Shown one piece after another: positions 2,877 through 52,023 of a stretch of DNA of 52,374 bases. A program made the translations under genes and the position numbers. The notes under the pieces are model-generated. The model did not search any database. It saw nothing but the letters and a program-made list of their open reading frames with translations, and was not told the origin of the DNA. Source of the stretch: a virus; the IMG/VR virus record IMGVR_UViG_3300050821_007552, positions 1 to 52,374 of that record; one strand, given 5' to 3'. How positions within the stretch are numbered: the first letter of the stretch is position 1; every line of letters begins with the position of its first letter.

Positions 2877-4141
2877 CCTTGTAGCTCTCGACAAGTGAAA
2901 GTGCCGTTCTCGACCAAACTCGCGTTGGTGCCGTTACCGGCAAAAAACAGCGCATAAGTCTGCGAAGAAACGGAATTTGGTATATCAAACACCGGACCCA
3001 CGGAAATAGCAGACACAGCAGGAAGGCCAGAAGATGCACCCGTCTGTATCGGTTGACCTAAAGCCGTGGCACCGCGATAAATCTGGGCAATCAATAAACT
3101 CGCCGCTGCCCCGGGATTTTGCCATGTTGAGGCTGAGCATGCAACTATATCGGATGCACTGAAAGGAACCAAATTTAACGTCATATTAGTACTGGCGGCA
3201 GGAGTAGCTGAAGTAATAGATTGAGTGACCGCAGTACTCGCCCACATTTCTTGAACCGTTTGGCCGGCTATGGGAATGCCTGGACCAGCCAATTGCACAG
3301 TAGTCGGACCTGTAAGCCAAGCTCCTGCAGTAGCTTCTTGTACGTCTACATACCCAAGCACTCTAATTGGCGAATTTGTGACAGATACGGCCGTACAATA
3401 CAGCACTTGTGCGTTAGCACCGCCTCCCGATCCTGCAAAAGACGTATAGACCCTACTTTCATTGAGAGGAATCAGACTGGCAAACGCTCCTGCCGGTGCG
3501 GAGCGCGCATTGTATACGCACAAAGATGGAGTACCGGCATTATTAATTGCCGCGACCCACAATCGACACATTTGGGCATTGTTGCACCCTACTGCAAAAC
3601 CCGAAGTAGCCGAAATATTCAACGGCGCTTGAAGCGACAAAATTACTGGATCGCCGTTTGCAACTGTCGCGTCGCGGAACGGAATCAACACCGGATTGGC
3701 TGCCGACGGAGCGCTACCGTTGTTCCCTAAGACAGCAATCGTCAAATTGCTCGCTATTACACTAGCATTAAGCTGCAAGTTGACTGGCATGCTGAAACTA
3801 AGGGCGGAATTGGCAAGCGTAGAAGACAGAACGCTCGACCATGCACCATCGCCACGCCAAAACGTCGTGGCGGATGCGTTGGTGCCGGAATTAAGATTAG
3901 CAGGAGGTAAGTTCCCCGTAACACCTGCACCACCTAAAGAAAGCGCAGTGCACGCCGGATCGGCAGAAGCCCCGGCCCCAATGATTGGCACGCCGGAATT
4001 ACACGGTCCGACACTACCAAAACCGATGACGCCGATATCACGACCGACAGGAATAGAATGATTCGGCGTTTGCCACTGCGCGAGTGCTGGAATCGCAATG
4101 AGGCATGCAAGAACGATGGGAATCAAACGAAGCATTTTCAT
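2873..4141 (-). CDS. Tail or adsorption protein with N-terminal signal peptide
   Basis: 422 residues. The ATG at 4141 overlaps the upstream TGA and begins a textbook Sec signal: Lys-containing start, hydrophobic core LIPIVLACLIAIPALA, predicted cleavage after ALA before QWQTP. The rest is Gly/Ser/Thr/Asn-rich beta-structure with the phrase NASATTFWRGDGAW, typical of phage tail fibres. Scattered Cys residues (GCNNAQMC, ACSAS) would suit an oxidised extracytoplasmic protein. It lies in a run of virion-like genes with 4-base overlaps. A role in receptor binding is an inference from composition and context. Confidence 0.65.
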   Translation of the reverse strand: MKMLRLIPIVLACLIAIPALAQWQTPNHSIPVGRDIGVIGFGSVGPCNSGVPIIGAGASADPACTALSLGGAGVTGNLPPANLNSGTNASATTFWRGDGAWSSVLSSTLANSALSFSMPVNLQLNASVIASNLTIAVLGNNGSAPSAANPVLIPFRDATVANGDPVILSLQAPLNISATSGFAVGCNNAQMCRLWVAAINNAGTPSLCVYNARSAPAGAFASLIPLNESRVYTSFAGSGGGANAQVLYCTAVSVTNSPIRVLGYVDVQEATAGAWLTGPTTVQLAGPGIPIAGQTVQEMWASTAVTQSITSATPAASTNMTLNLVPFSASDIVACSASTWQNPGAAASLLIAQIYRGATALGQPIQTGASSGLPAVSAISVGPVFDIPNSVSSQTYALFFAGNGTNASLVENGTFTCRELQG

Positions 4142-12226: not shown

Positions 12227-12433
12227 ATGACAATGCCATGGGAAACACACCCGGCCGTGTTCTTTGGTATCGTCGAACCCCAAGATCCTTTGATAGGACT
12301 CAAACCAATCGAACTGAAATTCTTTCCTGCACGACCAGAACTACGTAAAAGCCCACTGACGGGATTATATCCTGGCCAAAATCATCCACTTGATATTCCA
12401 GACTTCTTACGACGCGTACATCAAAATGATTAG
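12227..12433 (+). CDS. Small hypothetical protein beginning MTMPWE
   Basis: 68 residues, ATG at 12227 just after the previous stop. The first six residues repeat the MPWE motif seen at other termini in this genome. The rest (PLIGLKPIELKFFPARPELR) has no known domain. The 3' end overlaps the next gene by eight bases. Confidence 0.5.
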   Translation: MTMPWETHPAVFFGIVEPQDPLIGLKPIELKFFPARPELRKSPLTGLYPGQNHPLDIPDFLRRVHQND

Positions 12434-12845
12434 AACAAATCATTTACCACGTGACGCGTGGTCTAAACGCATCCTAGCATATTGGCTGGAACGCGTACCT
12501 GAACCTGTAGCCCGTTCCCAAACTGCTTATGAACGCGGCGCCCTTGCGTATCGTTTGCAGAAAAACGGCGTTTCGTTACAACGCATAGCTGATCACTTCA
12601 ATCTATCTAGTCGAGAGCGCGTCAGACAAATGCTGTGGAAACACGAACGCGAACGCAAATGGATGACTCCTGTAGAAAAGTTTTTCGCCACCCATCTTTT
12701 TTTCACTGATATAAAAACAACTGCAAACAAATGGGCCGGACAGACCGGGCCACGTATTGACCCGAAGCGTTGCGCGTACGCACTTAGCTGCGCACTCGCG
12801 TCGTTCAATCCCTCAAATAGTCCTCCAAAGTCATCCCAACCGTAA
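12426..12845 (+). CDS. HTH protein with sigma-70 region 4-like helix-turn-helix
   Basis: 139 residues. ATG at 12426 overlaps the preceding stop; a TTG at 12390 is an alternative. Residues 40-75 read AYRLQKNGVSLQRIADHF then LSSRERVRQMLWKHERER, which matches the sigma region 4/GerE-like pattern in which RVRQ is the start of the recognition helix. It lacks regions 2 and 3, so it is a DNA-binding regulator rather than a full sigma factor. A candidate controller of phage genes, including the CCTTAAGG sites. Its 3' end overlaps the convergent gene by 41 bases. Confidence 0.6.
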   Translation: MIRTNHLPRDAWSKRILAYWLERVPEPVARSQTAYERGALAYRLQKNGVSLQRIADHFNLSSRERVRQMLWKHERERKWMTPVEKFFATHLFFTDIKTTANKWAGQTGPRIDPKRCAYALSCALASFNPSNSPPKSSQP

Positions 12846-13113: not shown

Positions 13114-13122
13114 TTATAATCC

Positions 13123-21466: not shown

Positions 21467-21868
21467 TCAGTACACCGCGCGGTCGACTGCTTCGGGTTTG
21501 TAACTTGCAACAGCAACCAACGCCTTACCTTCGTCGCCGAGCTTTTCGAGCGCAGCCGGCGATTGCAAGTTAAACGCGTTGAGGCCAAACGATTTAAATG
21601 CTAGTTCGGCCGCAGTCGCGGGATCATGCCACTTGCGATGGGTTATGCCGGGCTTCCGAGCTACGCCAGGCACGAGCACGCCATCGTTGATAGCGCGTAC
21701 CGTGATTCGCTGATCGATGACCGCAGCGAAGCCGACGACCGCCTGCGTTGCTTTGACAAGCGACACGAGTTCGCCATCTGCAATAGTCGCAACGTCAAGC
21801 GCCGCAAGCTCGGCAGCGATGGCTTCGAGCGCGGTTTTGATTTCGGAAGGTGTTCGGTGGTTTTGCAT
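21467..21868 (-). CDS. Hypothetical protein related to DUF2800 C-termini
   Basis: 133 residues, ATG at 21868. The N-terminal half is an Ala/Leu helix (EIKTALEAIAAELAALDVA). The second half, VPGVARKPGITHRKWHD, then AFKSFGLNAF and SPAALEKLGDEGKALVAV, resembles the C-terminal region of DUF2800 proteins, including the nuclease at 32784-33746 (LKPTHGWRMWND, LTPAQAEKLG). First gene after the strong promoter at 21960-21988, so highly expressed early. Confidence 0.55.
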   Translation of the reverse strand: MQNHRTPSEIKTALEAIAAELAALDVATIADGELVSLVKATQAVVGFAAVIDQRITVRAINDGVLVPGVARKPGITHRKWHDPATAAELAFKSFGLNAFNLQSPAALEKLGDEGKALVAVASYKPEAVDRAVY

Positions 21869-21959: not shown

Positions 21960-21988
21960 TATCTAAACTGATTCGCGGCGCTTGTCAA
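21960..21988 (-). promoter_or_regulatory. Strong sigma-70-type promoter
   Basis: Read on the minus strand: TTGACA (21983-21988), a 17-base spacer, TAGATA (21960-21965). Perfect -35 and 5/6 -10 spacing and match. It drives the tightly overlapped minus operon 21868-19444. Confidence 0.7.
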
Positions 21989-22801: not shown

Positions 22802-23266
22802 TCAAGACCGTTGATCAATTCGCCTACTGTAGCGCCTGGCAGCGTCCGTGTCAACCCCTAAAAGCCACGCTAATTTACCTATTTCGTGTTTTTCGTATTT
22901 ATTGCCGCAGAGCATATCCCAATGCGCAATAGCCGCACGGCCGTTAATCGGCGATGCCGCAATTGCAATTTTAAGCGCGCTAGAAGCCGGCTCTTGACAA
23001 GCTGCTAAAATCCGCTCTTTACGCTTCGTTCGACCAAAATCCGTTCTTGGCAGTTTTCCGACCGCAATTAAGTCATCAATTACGCTCGCAAGCAATCCGC
23101 CACATAAATCCGCCAAATCCGTCGTTAAGCCGGCTTCTACACAATCGCGCGTTAAAGCCGGACTTGCGAACCGTACCAATTTAGCGCGAATAGCCGTGCT
23201 ATGACGCATAGCTTGCTCTAACGCATATTGCGCCACTTTAATAGCCGGTAGCCGATTTTCGTTCAT
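22802..23266 (-). CDS. First gene of the minus early operon, possible DNA-binding regulator
   Basis: 154 residues, ATG at 23266 with GGAAGGAAG upstream; the in-frame extension further upstream covers the hairpin leader and is unlikely to be coding. Helical throughout. The C-terminal EIGKLAWLLGVDTDAARRYSRRID has helix-turn-helix character. The segment VIDDLIAVGKL (about residues 73-83) is repeated in the membrane protein at 30007 with only synonymous DNA differences. Transcribed from the operator-rich region, so it may be the regulator acting there; no family recognised. Confidence 0.55.
   Translation of the reverse strand: MNENRLPAIKVAQYALEQAMRHSTAIRAKLVRFASPALTRDCVEAGLTTDLADLCGGLLASVIDDLIAVGKLPRTDFGRTKRKERILAACQEPASSALKIAIAASPINGRAAIAHWDMLCGNKYEKHEIGKLAWLLGVDTDAARRYSRRIDQRS
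23051..23082 (-). repeat. 32-bp segment shared with 30068-30099
   Basis: Minus strand here matches the plus strand at 30068-30099 in 30 of 32 positions. Both copies are read in the same frame (encoding IDDLIAVGKL) and both differences are silent (GAT/GAC, GCG/GCA). Confidence 0.85.
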
Positions 23267-23294
23267 GACTCTTTCTTCCTTCCCTTCCTTTTTG

Positions 23295-23336
23295 GGGACC
23301 CCCCACTTAAAAAGGGGGGTCCCACCCCGTAGGGGT
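23295..23336 (-). promoter_or_regulatory. Stable hairpins in the 5' leader of the 23266 gene
   Basis: A perfect 10-bp inverted repeat, GGGACCCCCC (23295-23304) and GGGGGGTCCC (23314-23323) with a 9-base loop, next to ACCCC-GTA-GGGGT (23324-23336). No U-run follows on either strand, so it is not an ordinary terminator. On the minus strand it lies in the untranslated leader, 29 bases before the start codon. Confidence 0.6.
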
Positions 23337-23418
23337 AGGGGACTGGCCTCTCCCTTGTGACTAGTAAAAAAATCAGTAAGGACGATACATGACGCCATTC
23401 TGAGTGTACAGTGTACCG

Positions 23419-23487
23419 TCCTTAAGGTGAGAAAACGTTCCTTAAGGAAAATTTCCTCACCTTAAGGACATTTTCTTACCCTAAGGA
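23419..23487. promoter_or_regulatory. Array of four operators (TCCTTAAGGA type)
   Basis: Four near-perfect palindromes: CCTTAAGG at 23420-23427, 23440-23447 (extended to TTCCTTAAGGAA) and 23460-23467, and CCCTAAGG at 23479-23486. Centres are 20, 20 and 19 bp apart, about two helical turns, so bound dimers would lie on one DNA face. The 313-base gap 23267-23579 holds this array, one further site at 23529-23538, the leader hairpins and promoters, and no gene. Confidence 0.75.
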
Positions 23488-23520
23488 CACAAATTATATC
23501 GTTTTTGTAACATTTAGTGA

Positions 23521-23549
23521 TTGGACAATCCTTAGGGACGTGCTAGATT
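23521..23549 (+). promoter_or_regulatory. Early plus-strand promoter with operator in its spacer
   Basis: TTGGAC (23521-23526), 17-base spacer, TAGATT (23544-23549). The spacer contains the palindromic site TCCTTAGGGA (23529-23538), so a bound protein would block RNA polymerase directly. Drives the gene at 23580. Confidence 0.7.
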
Positions 23550-23579
23550 GCAAATTGTCAACGAGAGGGGAACACGGAT

Positions 23580-23798
23580 ATGTCTTACATCGACGAAAAC
23601 AAGATCAAGGCCGAATACGCACCCTATCATACGATGTTTGCCTTTGAAGTTGCCTACGCCAGCGTGATGGCTGGTCGCGATTGGCTGCGCCATCACTACC
23701 GTGGGGTTGACGAGCAAGCGTACGACCGCGGCGTTGAGGCGGCATGCCGCGTCAAGCGCATCACTAAGTGGGTCGAGACGAACATCGGCTCGAATTGA
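23580..23798 (+). CDS. First plus-strand early protein
   Basis: 72 residues, MSYIDENKIKAEYAPYHTMF, with GAGAGGGG upstream of the ATG. Mostly helical with RDWLRHHYRGVDEQAYDRG. No domain recognised. Its position behind the operator-controlled promoter suggests an immediate-early role. Confidence 0.6.
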   Translation: MSYIDENKIKAEYAPYHTMFAFEVAYASVMAGRDWLRHHYRGVDEQAYDRGVEAACRVKRITKWVETNIGSN

Positions 23799-23870
23799 AA
23801 CGGCATAACAGGCATGCAAAAATGTACGTGTACACATGCCAACACGAGCTGGAGGGCACAGCCAATCCAC

Positions 23871-23899
23871 TTGACAGTCCCTAAGGAAGCCTGTACACG
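23871..23899 (+). promoter_or_regulatory. Promoter/operator repeat, copy 2
   Basis: TTGACA (23871-23876), 17-base spacer with TCCCTAAGGA (23878-23887), then TACACG (23894-23899). Followed by a leader nearly identical to the one at 25109-25136, ending in the shared ribosome site ATGGAGATCGAAA before ATG 23928. The -10 is weak, so activation is possible as well as repression. Confidence 0.6.
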
Positions 23900-23927
23900 T
23901 ACATACGTCAATAGATGGAGATCGAAA

Positions 23928-24149
23928 ATGACAAGCCATTGGAACACGATCCTCACTCCCGCCGAAATCGACGCTTACCACGCGCGAACCGCCGAACTGG
24001 ATCCGGGCTTTGCCGCTCACGACCGCGCTTGGTATCGCTCACGTACGGAAAATCAACTTTGGGATTCCATGGCCCAGAATTGGCGTTGCAGCTGCGGCGA
24101 GAGTTATCAAATGGCACGTTCCTATCTTGCTATGAACTTTGGGGAGTAA
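23928..24149 (+). CDS. Early hypothetical protein
   Basis: 73 residues, MTSHWNTILTPAEIDAYHAR. Start fixed by the conserved leader GGAGATCGAAAATG. Contains WRCSCGESYQ, a possible half zinc site. No domain recognised. Confidence 0.6.
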   Translation: MTSHWNTILTPAEIDAYHARTAELDPGFAAHDRAWYRSRTENQLWDSMAQNWRCSCGESYQMARSYLAMNFGE

Positions 24150-24154
24150 CGGAA

Positions 24155-24292
24155 ATGATCGAAGCGAATTGGGAACTGTATTGGATGGTATTCTACGGCC
24201 AGAGCCGTCTTACCACATTCCGCAATATCGTCGCTCTCGGCATCGACCGCCGCACTGCCGCGGAAATGATCCAAGACTGTGAACGGGGGTAA
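24155..24292 (+). CDS. Early hypothetical peptide
   Basis: 45 residues, MIEANWELYWMVFYGQSRLT; the second half, ALGIDRRTAAEMIQDCERG, is helical and charged. Starts six bases after the previous stop. Function unknown. Confidence 0.5.
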   Translation: MIEANWELYWMVFYGQSRLTTFRNIVALGIDRRTAAEMIQDCERG

Positions 24293-24297
24293 CGAAA

Positions 24298-24477
24298 ATG
24301 GCACGTTTTATCCTTCGCGGCGTCTACACCAATGCCTGCGATTTTGGCCTCATTGAAGCTACCGACGAACAGCATGCTCGCGATCTCGCTGCCCAGATGG
24401 TCGGCTATCAATCCGAGGCCGACATGATCGAACAGCTCAGAAAACCGAGTGGGATTGTAGTTGAAAAAACAGGGTGA
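24298..24477 (+). CDS. Early hypothetical peptide
   Basis: 59 residues, MARFILRGVYTNACDFGLIE, then ATDEQHARDLAAQMVGYQ. A beta-strand followed by helices; compact fold likely. Spaced six bases from the previous gene, same operon. Confidence 0.5.
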   Translation: MARFILRGVYTNACDFGLIEATDEQHARDLAAQMVGYQSEADMIEQLRKPSGIVVEKTG

Positions 24478-24482
24478 TAAAA

Positions 24483-24698
24483 ATGGCACTGTACAGCCCG
24501 GAACACTTAGAAGCCATTCGCGCCGATGAAGATTGGAGAGCCGAGCTACGCAAACAATTTGGGAGACGCGCAAACCGCGTGCGTTTTACCGCGGAGGGGA
24601 GAGGCGTGGCGCAAAGCCCGTTGCGGGAACTCTACACCTCCGCACAAAAAGCTTTGCATGATTGGCATGCCAGCATGGGATTTGGCAGCGATGACTAA
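24483..24698 (+). CDS. Early hypothetical protein
   Basis: 71 residues, MALYSPEHLEAIRADEDWRA, helical and charged with a basic middle (KQFGRRANRVRF). An upstream in-frame GTG overlaps the previous stop but the ATG is preferred. 3' end overlaps the next gene. Confidence 0.5.
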   Translation: MALYSPEHLEAIRADEDWRAELRKQFGRRANRVRFTAEGRGVAQSPLRELYTSAQKALHDWHASMGFGSDD

Positions 24699-25083
24699 GA
24701 TCAACGGCATGCACGACCGCTCCCCGTGGGAGCGATGCGGGGAATCGCCTAAATGGGTTCGCGGCCGCTCCCATCTAACGCTGACCGAATTCAGGCGCCC
24801 TTGCGGCGCCTGCGGCAAGGAGTTTTCGATTTACGTCACGCGCAAAATAGCAGACGGCCATGCGGACTCCAATGCGTTCGGACTTGTCAACTGCGAACTT
24901 CATCGCCGCAAACCCGATGGAACGTCCGAAAAAGCCGTGCTACGTTCGAAAGATCGCGTCATGACTGCAGAACTCGACGGCCTCTATGAAATCGAACGCG
25001 AGCTTCGCGCGGAAGTAATGAAACTCCTTGCGGAAAACGCTGCGCTAAAAAATAATTTGAACAAAATGCCATGGGAGTGTTGA
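24691..25083 (+). CDS. Zinc-ribbon hypothetical protein with PWE motifs at both ends
   Basis: 130 residues. N-terminus contains RSPWERCGE; residues 30-75 carry PCGACGKEF and NCELHRRK, a likely CxxC...CxxH zinc site; the last 45 residues form a coiled coil ending NKMPWEC. The stop lies inside the -35 of the next promoter repeat. Confidence 0.55.
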   Translation: MTKINGMHDRSPWERCGESPKWVRGRSHLTLTEFRRPCGACGKEFSIYVTRKIADGHADSNAFGLVNCELHRRKPDGTSEKAVLRSKDRVMTAELDGLYEIERELRAEVMKLLAENAALKNNLNKMPWEC

Positions 25084-25108
25084 CAGTCCCTAAGGACGTG
25101 TGTACACG
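25080..25108 (+). promoter_or_regulatory. Promoter/operator repeat, copy 3
   Basis: TTGACA (25080-25085), 17-base spacer with TCCCTAAGGA (25087-25096), TACACG (25103-25108), then GTACATGCATCAACAG and the same GGAGATCGAAA ribosome site before ATG 25137. A near duplicate of 23871-23927. Confidence 0.6.
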
Positions 25109-27861: not shown

Positions 27862-28664
27862 AACCGCTTGCCATCGATCTGTTCTGCGGCCTTGGTGGCT
27901 GGACGGAAGGCTTGCTTGCCGAGGGCTATGATGTGGTCGGCTTCGACATTAAGCGGCACGTCTATGGCAACCATTGCTATCCGGCGCAGCTTGTCATCCA
28001 GGACGTTCGCACGCTTCACGGCTCGCAGTTCCGGAATGCCACACTGATCGTCGCATCGCCGCCTTGCCAAGCGTACAGCTATCGGGCGATGCCGTGGCGA
28101 CGCGCTAAGGCGTTGCCGCCACCCGACAATGCGCTATTCAACGAATGCTTCCGCATTCAGCGCGAGGCGTGCGAAGCGGCGGGACGGCATATTCCGATGG
28201 TTGTCGAGAACGTACGCGGTGCGCAGCCGTGGGTCGGGAGAGCCCGTCAGAATTTCGGGAGTTTTTATTTGTGGGGCGACGTGCCAGCGTTGTTCGTCAT
28301 TGCGAACAACATCACGAGCGGGTACGGTCGAAAGGCACCTGATGGTACGCGTTGGTTCAACGATGAACCCCGCAATCCTAATTCACTAGCTTCCTCAAGT
28401 TCACGTTCTTCAAAACGCAAATTCGCGAGCGCCATGATCGCGAAAATACCGCTGCCACTCAGCCGGCACATTGCGACAACATTCAAGGGGGCTTCGGTGG
28501 GGCTAAAATCGAATGGCGAGTGGAACGGAATTTGCGCCTGCGGAAAAACAGTCGCGGATGGCGTACGGTGTCGGTTCGGCGCGACTCACGAGAAAAAGCA
28601 TGCTTTTCCGTGGGAGATTGAGCAACCAGAAAGGAAAATGCCATGGGAACGTACACCTTCGTAA
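27852..28664 (+). CDS. DNA (cytosine-5) methyltransferase
   Basis: 270 residues, ATG at 27852 overlapping the helicase 3' end. Motif I IDLFCGLGG (8-16), motif IV with catalytic Cys SPPCQ (69-73), motif VI VVENV (117-121), and FGSFYLWGDVPALF typical of the region before the target domain. The C-terminal LPLSRHIATTF matches motif X-like ends of phage C5 enzymes. It ends with a Cys-containing extension (CACGKTVADGVRC) and KKHAFPWEIE...KMPWERTPS. It likely protects phage DNA from host restriction. No cognate endonuclease is nearby. Confidence 0.85.
   Translation: MGLKPLAIDLFCGLGGWTEGLLAEGYDVVGFDIKRHVYGNHCYPAQLVIQDVRTLHGSQFRNATLIVASPPCQAYSYRAMPWRRAKALPPPDNALFNECFRIQREACEAAGRHIPMVVENVRGAQPWVGRARQNFGSFYLWGDVPALFVIANNITSGYGRKAPDGTRWFNDEPRNPNSLASSSSRSSKRKFASAMIAKIPLPLSRHIATTFKGASVGLKSNGEWNGICACGKTVADGVRCRFGATHEKKHAFPWEIEQPERKMPWERTPS
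28595..28606. repeat. Palindrome AAAGCATGCTTT, copy 4
   Basis: Perfect copy near the 3' end of the C5-methyltransferase gene, 37 bases before the next start; read as KKHAF. Confidence 0.8.
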
Positions 28665-28816
28665 CGTTACAAATTAGCGATGTTGCGTACAATGAAATAG
28701 AAATTGCTCTTCGAGAGGTTGGTTATGATCATGTATTCGGAGATAAGGGTGAGATCAACATGCACGGTCTTGCACTTATAAAGAAGCGTGATGATAAAGC
28801 GGAGCCCGCTGAATGA
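28643..28816 (+). CDS. Small hypothetical protein
   Basis: 57 residues, MGTYTFVTLQISDVAYNEIE; AAGGA precedes the ATG at 28643 inside the methyltransferase end (overlap of 22 bases). Beta-alpha pattern with YDHVFGDKGEINMHGLAL. Stop overlaps the next start (ATGA). Confidence 0.5.
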   Translation: MGTYTFVTLQISDVAYNEIEIALREVGYDHVFGDKGEINMHGLALIKKRDDKAEPAE

Positions 28817-29109
28817 AGATGCCGTGGGAGCCGTCTTTAGAGGACGTTGTTCGGGCGTTGCGGGCAGACATGCAGTTTATGCACGCATTTACGGCTATAC
28901 TCGTGCGCAGTCAGAATGAGGAGCTACGTATGGTCGTAAATACTGAACGTGGGCAAGTCATGCCGGAAGGTAAGTGCACCTTTAAGGATGGTACTACTAT
29001 CGAATTCCAGGATATCGGCATGCCGCAGATCGGCGTGCCGACAATGACCACAAAGGAGCTTGTGCTAACAACGCTGCATAAGGCGTTTGCTCTGGGGCTT
29101 GAAATATGA
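28813..29109 (+). CDS. Hypothetical protein beginning MKMPWE
   Basis: 98 residues. Short MPWE start, helical region EDVVRALRADMQFMHAFTAI, then a beta region CTFKDGTTIEFQDIGMPQIG. ATGA overlaps on both sides. Function unknown; part of the replication operon. Confidence 0.55.
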   Translation: MKMPWEPSLEDVVRALRADMQFMHAFTAILVRSQNEELRMVVNTERGQVMPEGKCTFKDGTTIEFQDIGMPQIGVPTMTTKELVLTTLHKAFALGLEI

Positions 29110-37481: not shown

Positions 37482-37712
37482 ATGGTTCGCCGCCGAAAGC
37501 TTTTGATTTATTACAAGAGGATCGTCCCCAGTCAAAAAATCATGATCTCCATGCGTTTACCTACTAGTCTCGTCGAGCGGCTTGATTTCATCGTTCGGAA
37601 TGACGAAGCCAACGCAGCAACCCGATCGTCCGAAATTCAGGCAGCTATCGAGTCATGGCTCGACAATCGCGAACGTCGCATGCGTGAATTAGGTTTGGAA
37701 CCACCGACATGA
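37482..37712 (+). CDS. Ribbon-helix-helix DNA-binding protein
   Basis: 76 residues from ATG 37482; an internal ATG at 37542 would give a 56-residue minimal domain. ISMRLPTSLVERLDFIV, then SSEIQAAIESWLDN is the strand-helix-helix layout of CopG/Arc/MetJ repressors. Operon with the VRR-NUC gene by ATGA overlap. A candidate binder of the CCTTAAGG palindromes, since RHH dimers favour short palindromes. Confidence 0.7.
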   Translation: MVRRRKLLIYYKRIVPSQKIMISMRLPTSLVERLDFIVRNDEANAATRSSEIQAAIESWLDNRERRMRELGLEPPT

Positions 37713-46067: not shown

Positions 46068-46243
46068 GTAATCCACAAGATATCGAACTCCATCGGGAAC
46101 GCGTGTCACGTCGTACGGCATTACTGGCGGGCGCTGCGCGTTTGGAGCAACGGGCTCATGAACTTATCATAGAAGCTCACGAGCTTCGCAAGCTTGCGGA
46201 AAAACTATTTGACGTTATCGAAAAGGAAAAACAAGCATCATGA
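46064..46243 (+). CDS. Small coiled-coil protein
   Basis: 59 residues, MSNPQDIELHRERVSRRTAL; one long charged helix ending LFDVIEKEKQAS. ATGA overlaps on both sides. Function unknown. Confidence 0.5.
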   Translation: MSNPQDIELHRERVSRRTALLAGAARLEQRAHELIIEAHELRKLAEKLFDVIEKEKQAS

Positions 46244-46725
46244 GCAGTGTAGGAGTTCATTCATTCCAAATCCCGCACGAACACGTACAACCGATCCGTG
46301 ACATGGTCATTGTACGCATTCCACTGCCGCCATCGAAAATCGGCAGCATCCTGACGCCGGATATCACGCGCGACATGATGCAGCACAACGTCATGGCCGG
46401 ACGCGTCGCGGGAATGGGGCCGCTCGCATTCAGTTACAAAAGCGGCAAGCTCGGAGACGTTTTGGCAAAACAGGACGTAAAAATCGGCGATTGGGTACTG
46501 TTCCGTCCATTCGCCGGAACGATGATTCAAGGCGGAAAATTGACCGCAACAAACGGCTGGCGGTACATGTCCAGTTTCAATGATGTGATCGGCATCATAA
46601 AAGCAGAACACATGCCAGACCCTTCCACACTTGAATGGGAAACGCCGGACGCACAGATGGAAACGGCGCCAGACTTTGATTTCAGCAACAGCAGAGCCTC
46701 TGAAGGACCGTACCTAAGGAGTTGA
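46240..46725 (+). CDS. GroES-like co-chaperonin (gp31-like)
   Basis: 161 residues. The core VQPIRDMVIVRIPLPPSKIG, VMAGRVAGMGPLAF, VKIGDWVLFRPFAG, WRYMSSFNDVIGII matches Cpn10: N-terminal strand, G-x-V-x-x-x-G turn, GD-x-V and the final (D)VIG(I/V). A mobile-loop segment of about 20 residues (around LTPDITRDMMQHN) precedes the MAGRV strand. A C-terminal extension of about 35 residues is phage-specific. T4 gp31 replaces GroES to fold the capsid protein; a similar job here is inferred from the position between portal and scaffold. Confidence 0.72.
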   Translation: MSSVGVHSFQIPHEHVQPIRDMVIVRIPLPPSKIGSILTPDITRDMMQHNVMAGRVAGMGPLAFSYKSGKLGDVLAKQDVKIGDWVLFRPFAGTMIQGGKLTATNGWRYMSSFNDVIGIIKAEHMPDPSTLEWETPDAQMETAPDFDFSNSRASEGPYLRS

Positions 46726-46728
46726 TCC

Positions 46729-47394
46729 GTGGACTTGAACACAATGGTGAGGGAACAAGCCCTTAGTGGTTTGCGAGCCGCCCTCGATAAAGCCGTACTC
46801 GAAGGCGATCAAGAGGGCGCCCGCAAAGCCGCAACACAACTGGCACAGCTAGAAATCAGTACGGCTCCAAAACCGCTGCCATACGGTGACGCCGAAATAC
46901 GCGCGGAATTGAACAAGCAAGAATGGTTCGGTACCGATCCGAAACGATCAGCGAAAGCAATTCAATTCGGAAAAGATTTGGACCCAAACAAGTTCGCTAC
47001 CGCAGCCGACTTTACTGCGGCCATCGTGAAAGCCGTGGAAGATGAATTCAAACCGCCCAAGCCTGCCAGAACAGATGACGAGGACGGAGGTAATGAAGAA
47101 ACCGAAAATGAAGACGGCACAGAGAATGAGGATGAAGACGACGAAGAAATTAGGAACAAAAGCAAGAGCAAACGCCGCCGCACAGATGGCCCTAAGGAGG
47201 GTGACGGCAACACGCATCGTCGTGCAGGACCTTGGGCCAAACTTAGCGACGCGCCACCTGCTATTCAGGCTGAAATAAAGCGCTCTGCCAATAAGCTCCT
47301 GTCGTCCAAAGCCACGAAAGAACAGCGGACGACTTTCGAGGCTAAGGCTCTTGAAAGTCACTACGCCGCGCACCAACGAAGTAAAAGGAAGTAG
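46729..47394 (+). CDS. Probable scaffolding protein
   Basis: 221 residues, GTG start with AAGGAG seven bases upstream. Helical, Ala-rich start; residues 118-140 are an extremely acidic stretch (EETENEDGTENEDEDDEE) followed by a basic one (NKSKSKRRR); the C-terminal helix is basic. This acidic/basic bipartite, helical composition and its location between portal and virion genes suit a head scaffold. No protease motif. Confidence 0.6.
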   Translation: MDLNTMVREQALSGLRAALDKAVLEGDQEGARKAATQLAQLEISTAPKPLPYGDAEIRAELNKQEWFGTDPKRSAKAIQFGKDLDPNKFATAADFTAAIVKAVEDEFKPPKPARTDDEDGGNEETENEDGTENEDEDDEEIRNKSKSKRRRTDGPKEGDGNTHRRAGPWAKLSDAPPAIQAEIKRSANKLLSSKATKEQRTTFEAKALESHYAAHQRSKRK

Positions 47395-51389: not shown

Positions 51390-51473
51390 TGGTGCTCCCG
51401 ACAGGATTCGAACCTGCACTGCTAATGCAAAGAGATTTTAAGTCTCTCGCGTTTCCCATTTCGCCACGGGAGC
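51390..51473 (-). tRNA. tRNA-Leu (anticodon UAA), CCA encoded
   Basis: Minus strand: acceptor GCTCCCG/CGGGAGC plus A and encoded CCA (RC of 51390-51392). D arm TGGCG-AAATGGGAAA-CGC, anticodon stem AGAGA/TCTCT with loop CTTAAAA (anticodon TAA), a long variable arm (TGCATTAGCA) as in class II tRNA, and T loop TTCGAAT in a CAGG/CCTG stem. 84 bases. It would read UUA, rare in GC-rich hosts but common in this phage. First base overlaps the stop codon of the 51473-51760 gene. Confidence 0.92.
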
Positions 51474-51760
51474 TATTTCATCTTCTCGATAAGCTCGGCA
51501 ACGATGCTCGTCACGGTTCGCCGCATCGCTGCAGCCTTGCGCGTGAGCTTTTCTCTCTCCGCGGCCGTCAAACGAATATCCATGCGACAGGCACGCAGTA
51601 CGACAGAAGGCTTGCGTGCAGCCCCGTTTTTATGCGTGCGACGTTTTGTCGCAGGCTTCGCCTTAGCCTTCTTCGGTTTCAGCTTGGCAGGTTTCGCCTT
51701 CTTCTTCGGTTTCGGCTTGACAGGCACTTGAATTGCGCTCTCAGAACTCTCCGTTTCCAT
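51473..51760 (-). CDS. Lys/Ala/Pro-rich ribbon-helix-helix protein
   Basis: 95 residues, AGGAG before ATG 51760. Residues 15-50 are histone H1-like (KPKPKKKAKPAKLKPKKAKA), probably disordered and DNA-coating. Residues 58-95, RMDIRLTAAEREKLTRKAAA and TVTSIVAELIEKM, form an RHH domain. Combined features suggest a DNA-binding regulator or nucleoid-like protein. Its TAG ends on the tRNA 5' base. Confidence 0.65.
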   Translation of the reverse strand: METESSESAIQVPVKPKPKKKAKPAKLKPKKAKAKPATKRRTHKNGAARKPSVVLRACRMDIRLTAAEREKLTRKAAAMRRTVTSIVAELIEKMK

Positions 51761-51813
51761 ACGTACGTGCTCCTATGAAGGTGTGCACGTCTTACACTGT
51801 ACACTCTTATATG

Positions 51814-52023
51814 TCAATCTGCACAGTGCAAACGAAGTTTCGCCCGATCCAGCATCCAATTCATACGCTCTGCAGTAGTACCATCTATAGTCATAGACAT
51901 AACACCATCGCCTTCTTCAATTAGAACAACGATGCTTCGAAAATCAATTTGGGCGAGAATGCCAAGCAACTCTGCTTTTGTATGTACGCGATCTGGAATT
52001 CGCGCAAGTTTCACTGTGCTCAT
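51814..52023 (-). CDS. Small hypothetical protein downstream of terminase
   Basis: 69 residues, MSTVKLARIPDRVHTKAELL; start with GGAGGG eight bases upstream, overlapping the terminase end region. Contains IDFRSIVVLIEEGDGVMSMTID (two strands) and a Trp-rich helix. Function unknown. Confidence 0.55.
   Translation of the reverse strand: MSTVKLARIPDRVHTKAELLGILAQIDFRSIVVLIEEGDGVMSMTIDGTTAERMNWMLDRAKLRLHCAD

Follow-up and report, generated by a model that had tools for sequence, protein, structure and literature searches.

Which protein reads the palindromes that crowd the early region of this phage? The window, by which we mean the whole 52,374-base stretch of DNA analysed, is a circular viral contig, judged by a short repeat at both ends. 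A preliminary description had reported seven palindromes of the form WCCYTARGGW, three of them inside promoter spacers, and had suggested that a single regulator, for which four candidates were listed, controls both early directions of a phage without an integrase. We consider it likely that TCCYTARGGA is the operator of a zinc-ribbon regulator encoded at 24691-25083 on the plus strand, and that the N-terminal domain of this protein is exchanged jointly with the promoter region. The regulator that previously had no name would be best explained by this zinc protein.

The comparison draws on about 30 contigs from uncultured phages, many of them of about 52 kb, which were collected by scanning IMG/VR with the DNA polymerase and with the family of the protein encoded at 22802-23266. 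Searches by capsid or by the 22802-23266 family found no relatives in 84,980 bacterial and archaeal genomes. GenBank phages gave no nucleotide match to the operator region and no protein match for 22802-23266 or 37482-37712, their similarity being limited to distant polymerase and capsid matches. As first described, no integrase was seen, nor any other lysogeny function, among the proteins scanned, which make up part of the window's ORFs.

Operators and early promoters

All seven palindromes are present. Four of them, TCCTTAAGGT (23419-23428), TCCTTAAGGA (23439-23448), ACCTTAAGGA (23459-23468) and ACCCTAAGGA (23478-23487), form an array found both by exact-match scan and by a matrix from relatives; the fifth is TCCTTAGGGA (23529-23538), and TCCCTAAGGA occurs twice, as operators 6 (23878-23887) and 7 (25087-25096). 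There is no further exact match in the window, so that seven sites, all within 1.7 kb, compare with 0.22 expected under a first-order Markov model of the whole window. The total with one mismatch is unremarkable (12 against 7.5 expected), so what stands out is that the sites are exact and that they cluster. When 39 sites from ten relatives, and none from the window, were combined into a matrix, it ranked the seven sites 1-7 among all window positions (12.8-19.5 bits); the next matches, at 13120 (12.4 bits), 46711 (10.8 bits) and 47189 (10.1 bits), are all one-mismatch sites. Given this excess and clustering, and since the position in promoters is kept in relatives, an origin of the palindromes by chance or by host-related sequence bias is hardly credible. 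An eighth, weaker site had been proposed in the leader of the minus operon promoter (CCTTAGG, within CCCTTAGG, at about 21897). It does sit downstream of the leftward promoter at 21988, but it scores 2.8 bits, at about rank 22 in the scan with the relatives' matrix, and we do not count it as an operator.

The spacings of the first five sites are 20, 20, 19 and 51 bp, as originally given, but their reading as whole helical turns does not extend to the family. An array with regular 20-bp spacing is confined to the window and its nearest relative, G002. In five other genomes with the same version of the zinc protein (version 1, described below) the spacings are irregular (39/71; 43/62/23/43/24; 257/53/14; 39/16/67; 57/13/29/23/35), so helical phasing is not a general rule.

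Operator 5 lies inside an early rightward promoter, TTGGAC-N17-TAGATT (23521-23549, plus strand), which is conserved in G002 as TTGGAC-AATCCTTAGGGATGTGA-TAGGTT. Operators 6 and 7 lie inside two promoters of the form TTGACA-N17-TACACG (23871-23899 and 25080-25108, both plus strand), the second of which starts at the end of the zinc-protein gene; an operator-bearing promoter at or just after the stop codon of this gene is found in the window, G004, G018 and G023. The three sites had been placed at the same spot of the 17-bp spacer, which holds exactly for operators 6 and 7, while operator 5 is 1 bp further from the hexamer. The view of the palindromes as a regulon inside early promoters is borne out by related phages, in which the sites are conserved and again lie between -35 and -10. 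The early promoters of the relatives share the form TTGACA-N17-TACAnn, usually with a site close after the -35 hexamer; this site is TCCYTARGGA in part of the phage family, and other repeats occupy the spacer and the divergent region of the others. Control of both early directions can be upheld for relatives rather than for the window itself: the window's leftward operon promoter, TTGACA-N17-TAGATA (21960-21988, minus strand), has no TCCYTARGGA operator, but in G012, G019 and G023 a leftward promoter close downstream of the homologue of 22802-23266 contains an operator, so that both directions are covered there.

Several other elements were observed around these promoters. In G000, G004, G006, G018 and L094 the spacer of the leftward promoter of the 21467-21868 operon shows a conserved sequence of a different kind, CCGCGAATCA or a near variant of it, which suggests another spacer operator. 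Beside operator 1, a 27-bp segment, ATGACGCCATTCTGAGTGTACAGTGTA (window 23384-23416), is inverted in G002 (L038, reverse complement, about 3645-3675) and flanked by the short inverted repeats GGACGATAC and GTACCRTCC; this 27-bp difference between the window and G002 reads as a micro-inversion. The leader of 22802-23266 contains a GC-rich hairpin (23294-23330) whose arms are GGGGACCCCCC and GGGGGGTCCC in the window and GGGGACGCCCC and GGGGCGTCCC in G002, and the change on both arms suggests a conserved structure. The sequence GTGTACAGTG is found beside the operator array (23400-23415) and in the promoter of the Arc-like protein 51473-51760 (51789-51817, minus strand), and CTGTACAG is enriched in the window, with 6 copies where 0.33 are expected, most of them within the leftward gene block; these are possibly the sites of a second regulator. 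A further palindrome, AAGCATGCTT, has six copies in the window (25790, 26698, 27808, 28596, 29880 and 31661), all in coding sequence of the replication-gene block, and 4, 6, 8, 5 and 6 copies in G002, G003, G004, G006 and G018, respectively; we read it as a DNA-level element.

The zinc protein and its covariation with the operator

The proposed regulator is a 130-aa protein with a zinc ribbon and a predicted coiled coil. Its ORF is listed as 24526-25083, and the start at 24691 is taken from relatives, in which the conserved part begins there. The version-1 N-terminal domain, which we propose to be DNA-binding, is encoded at 24712-24912, with C38, C41, C68 and H71 invariant (C-x2-C-x26-C-x2-H). 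A long C-terminal helix (residues 77-123, 24919-25059), predicted as a coiled coil, and an MPWEC tail (25066-25080) follow. The structure model (mean pLDDT 83.6) contains a beta hairpin, a third strand and short helices in addition to the long helix. An iterative profile search collected 27 family members in 23 genomes; they share a Cys-x2-Cys ... Cys-x2-His/Cys N-terminal domain, most have the long C-terminal helix, and in 27 of 27 a PW motif lies within the last residues. The window protein has no significant Pfam, PDB-sequence or PDB-fold match, and without a structural match the predicted fold itself points to no DNA-binding mode. Its PHROGs matches are weak and lead to entries of unknown function. 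Neither profile nor structure searches matched a helix-turn-helix of the CI/Cro or L5 kind, the Ogr_Delta profile is not among the matches, and literature searches on zinc-finger phage repressors returned nothing relevant. Motifs of the form [MF]PW[E] recur at the N-terminus of 28813-29109 and at the C-termini of the primase and the methylase (about 27830 and 28640), as well as in the zinc-protein tail at 25066-25080, and may serve these early proteins as a common docking peptide.

The case for this protein comes from its covariation with the operator. For each core family of the window, pairwise identity was compared with operator type after correction for species distance. The zinc family shows the strongest dependence (dR2 0.51), followed by the 46240-46725 family (0.34); dR2 is an effect size here and, with non-independent pairwise points and operator types assigned by eye, serves as a pointer rather than a test. 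The N-terminal domains were divided by alignment into versions v1, v1B, v2a, v2b, v3, v3x and v4. Version 1 is present in 11 of 11 TCCYTARGGA genomes and in none of 12 others, G026 holding the variant v1B, and a scan of IMG/VR with the version-1 alignment returned 11 loci, all in TCCYTARGGA-type phages (the same set or near-duplicates). In each of the 11 version-1 genomes the gene lies about 0.6-2 kb downstream of operators with its own motif.

For v2a, the motif GTRAATTYAC was derived from two genomes, G008 and G029, and was then found twice each in G031, G032, G035 and G024, where 0.1-0.2 copies are expected. Genomes without v2a do not have it, and two held-out v2a loci have it three times each when one mismatch is allowed. 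Tabulating motif against version for the 360-bp divergent region gives a nearly block-diagonal pattern (v1 7/7, v2a 6/6, v3 3/3, v4 2/2, v1B 1/1 and v2b 2/3, against a background of 0.01-0.06 per region), in which the v1B, v2b, v3 and v4 motifs were noticed after the regions had been seen and are weaker evidence than independent predictions. The candidate specificities are TCCYTARGGA, GTRAATTYAC, GTCYTARGAC and TAGATATCTA, with TTGCGTAA- and AATCYATnTAA-like repeats less certain; G009 and L094 (both v2b) and G021 yielded no readable operator, and that of L109 was only glimpsed. In four genomes with two zinc genes (G004, G006, G015 and G018), the motif found in the divergent region is that of the zinc gene next to it, while TCCYTARGGA lies close to the v1 gene. 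Taken together, the operator motif appears to change with the N-terminal domain of the zinc protein, for which a DNA-binding role is proposed.

No convincing gene exclusive to the TCCYTARGGA phages was found. Two small candidate ORF families, in six genomes each, were rejected as the regulator because neither occurs in all TCCYTARGGA genomes; the second, seen for example at G015 46459-46770 and G012 28547-29086, lies on the strand opposite to the zinc gene and overlaps it. The repeat GTTTAAAC had been considered as an operator type B. It occurs in G026, G029 and G030 (15, 10 and 10 copies, 0.6-0.9 expected) regardless of zinc version, with few copies in promoter spacers and most of them apparently inside genes, in a layout that resembles stoperators. 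Being independent of the zinc version and mostly intragenic, it is treated as a feature of its own.

Two pairs of closely related phages serve as natural swaps. Between G021 and G022, the flanking windows of an aligned 4 kb are mostly 85-99% identical and the divergent region 37-50%, with a few shorter identity dips further downstream; the zinc proteins agree in 26 of 56 residues of the N-terminal domain and in 84 of 93 of the C-terminal half. G022 has v1 and TCCYTARGGA sites, and G021 has neither. Between G029 and G030, the exchange spans the divergent region through the N-terminal domain of the zinc protein, including the first rightward genes, and the flanking genes are nearly identical. 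Here 19 of 55 residues of the N-terminal domain are identical, against 64 of 91 in the C-terminal part, and GTRAATTYAC is found in G029 only.

The same pairs bear on the regulators that had been nominated earlier (22802-23266, 37482-37712, 12426-12845 and 51473-51760), none of which fits. The 154-aa protein of 22802-23266 (minus strand) might have been expected to be the repressor reading the sites, as it adjoins the array, is conserved in every complete relative and has a predicted C-terminal helix pair in a confident all-alpha model (pLDDT 90, with no match in PDB or BFVD). Its family is, however, 99% (G029/G030) and 95% identical within the two sister pairs with differing operators, which excludes it as the specificity determinant, and it is absent from the families that covary with operator type; we regard this role as very improbable. 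The residues of its C-terminal helix do not track operator type. Compact palindromes would suit ribbon-helix-helix dimers, and 37482-37712 and 51473-51760 have weak ribbon-helix-helix or Arc-like profile matches. Both families are nevertheless spread over phages of several operator types, that of 51473-51760 without ranking among the covarying families. The 37482-37712 protein is 99% identical in G029/G030, the one pair that could be compared, which excludes it as the determinant for that pair, and its predicted DNA-contact strand (MISxR) is common to phages with and without TCCYTARGGA operators. That either of these two is the regulator is, if anything, slightly less probable again. The ORF at 12426-12845 has no homologue in two or more relatives.

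What the zinc protein may do

The sites, their placement in promoters, their covariation and their joint exchange with the N-terminal domain form the sequence basis from which we infer that the protein binds the sites directly, forms a dimer, represses rather than activates and regulates its own gene. The palindrome would be read by the N-terminal domain, with the protein probably forming a dimer through its C-terminal coiled coil; the palindromic site and the predicted coiled coil both suggest a dimer. This dimer model is not universal, since the version-1 protein of G006 is short and without the coiled coil, yet the operator sites of that genome persist. A protein bound between -35 and -10 would deny the host sigma-70 RNA polymerase access to the promoters at 23521, 23871 and 25080, polymerase occlusion being the simplest effect of an operator inside strong-looking sigma-70 promoters with optimal spacing. 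As the zinc gene lies downstream of operator-bearing promoters, its product most likely shuts down its own expression together with that of the surrounding early genes, and would thus most likely be an autoregulated repressor of the early promoters. Control of the divergent region would be tightened by the four-site array (23419-23487), and different, probably non-interfering specificities would arise as related phages exchange this promoter region jointly with the N-terminal domain.

Two other roles for the same protein have to be weighed against repression. In one, the zinc protein is an initiator and the array its iteron-bearing replication origin, with the promoter sites serving autoregulation and the PW tail recruiting the replisome. 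The tandem 20-bp spacing in the window and G002 and the AT-rich divergent region would suit an origin, as would the PW motifs in the primase and in 28813-29109 and the combination of N-terminal specificity with a constant C-terminal half, also known from lambda O. The minimum of the cumulative GC skew, at 23328, points the same way, but the skew is confounded by the divergent direction of the genes. Since the regular spacing is not conserved, and sites lie in promoter spacers far from the array (25087 in the window and several in G015, G023 and G012), which fits regulation, we consider this role unlikely. Marginally less likely still is an activator that remodels the promoter from the spacer in the manner of MerR. 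It would account for operators between -35 and -10 and for the weak -10 hexamers (TACACG, TACAAA); the -35 hexamers, however, are near consensus, the 17-bp spacer is optimal, unlike the long spacers corrected by MerR-type regulators, and profile searches found no MerR signature in the zinc family. Repression by the zinc protein remains our preferred reading.

Relation to known systems

In Cluster A mycobacteriophages (L5/Bxb1; PMC6550527, PMC9283540), repressors and their stoperator motifs diverge and the phages become heteroimmune (PMC6550527). The likeness lies in a phage-encoded regulator whose operator motif diverges with the protein among relatives, giving separate specificities. The Cluster A sites are asymmetric and genome-wide, in temperate phages, whereas here a zinc ribbon is paired with palindromes confined to the early region; unlike L5-type stoperators, which are dispersed inside operons, the exact sites occur only within 23419-25096.

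A second comparison is with the lambdoid immunity regions (lambda, 434, P22), which have divergent early promoters with multiple operators, and in which the operators and the DNA-binding domain are exchanged as a module. The phages studied here likewise exchange a module between otherwise similar genomes and have divergent early promoters with multiple operators; operators that overlap early promoters are a further heteroimmunity-like feature. They differ in that no CI or Cro homologue was seen, a single zinc protein is encoded in the early operon and only its N-terminal part is exchanged. With no CI/Cro- or L5-type domain, no dispersed sites and no lysogeny function seen, we do not claim membership in the lambdoid or Cluster A families.

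In lambda O, the N-terminal part that reads the DNA can be swapped while the C-terminal half stays constant. The zinc protein resembles lambda O with its origin, and plasmid Rep proteins with their iterons, in having an exchangeable N-terminal domain as its proposed reader, a constant C-terminal half and a tandem array, but several promoter spacers outside the array also contain its sites. P2 Ogr and P4 Delta are small phage zinc-binding transcription factors, and Ogr binds upstream of -35. Like them, the zinc protein is small, phage-encoded and a proposed transcription regulator; it differs in lacking a profile match, in its ligand pattern and in having its sites in the spacer. MerR-type systems, with an over-long spacer, a central dyad and a MerR domain, differ from the 17-bp spacer and the protein without a MerR match found here.

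We therefore have a named candidate regulator for an operator set that had none, and what appears, from the comparison of genomes, to be a regulator-operator specificity cassette resembling phage heteroimmunity but built on a protein family outside Pfam and PDB. A broader proposal, for and against which we find the case evenly balanced, is that the zinc-ribbon N-terminal domain, coiled coil and PW tail define a previously undescribed family of phage regulators, whose N-terminal domain is exchanged with its operators and which has at least four to six specificities readable from sequence; the same protein may act as a replication initiator at the array, coupling early-gene shut-off to replication. 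The near-identical phage pairs are natural domain-swap experiments. If the role of the zinc protein is confirmed, its short zinc domain, for which nature offers several specificities, would be an aid in working out how proteins recognise DNA sequence by a code, and it would show that regulatory specificity is diversified and exchanged also in phages that lack recognisable lysogeny genes.
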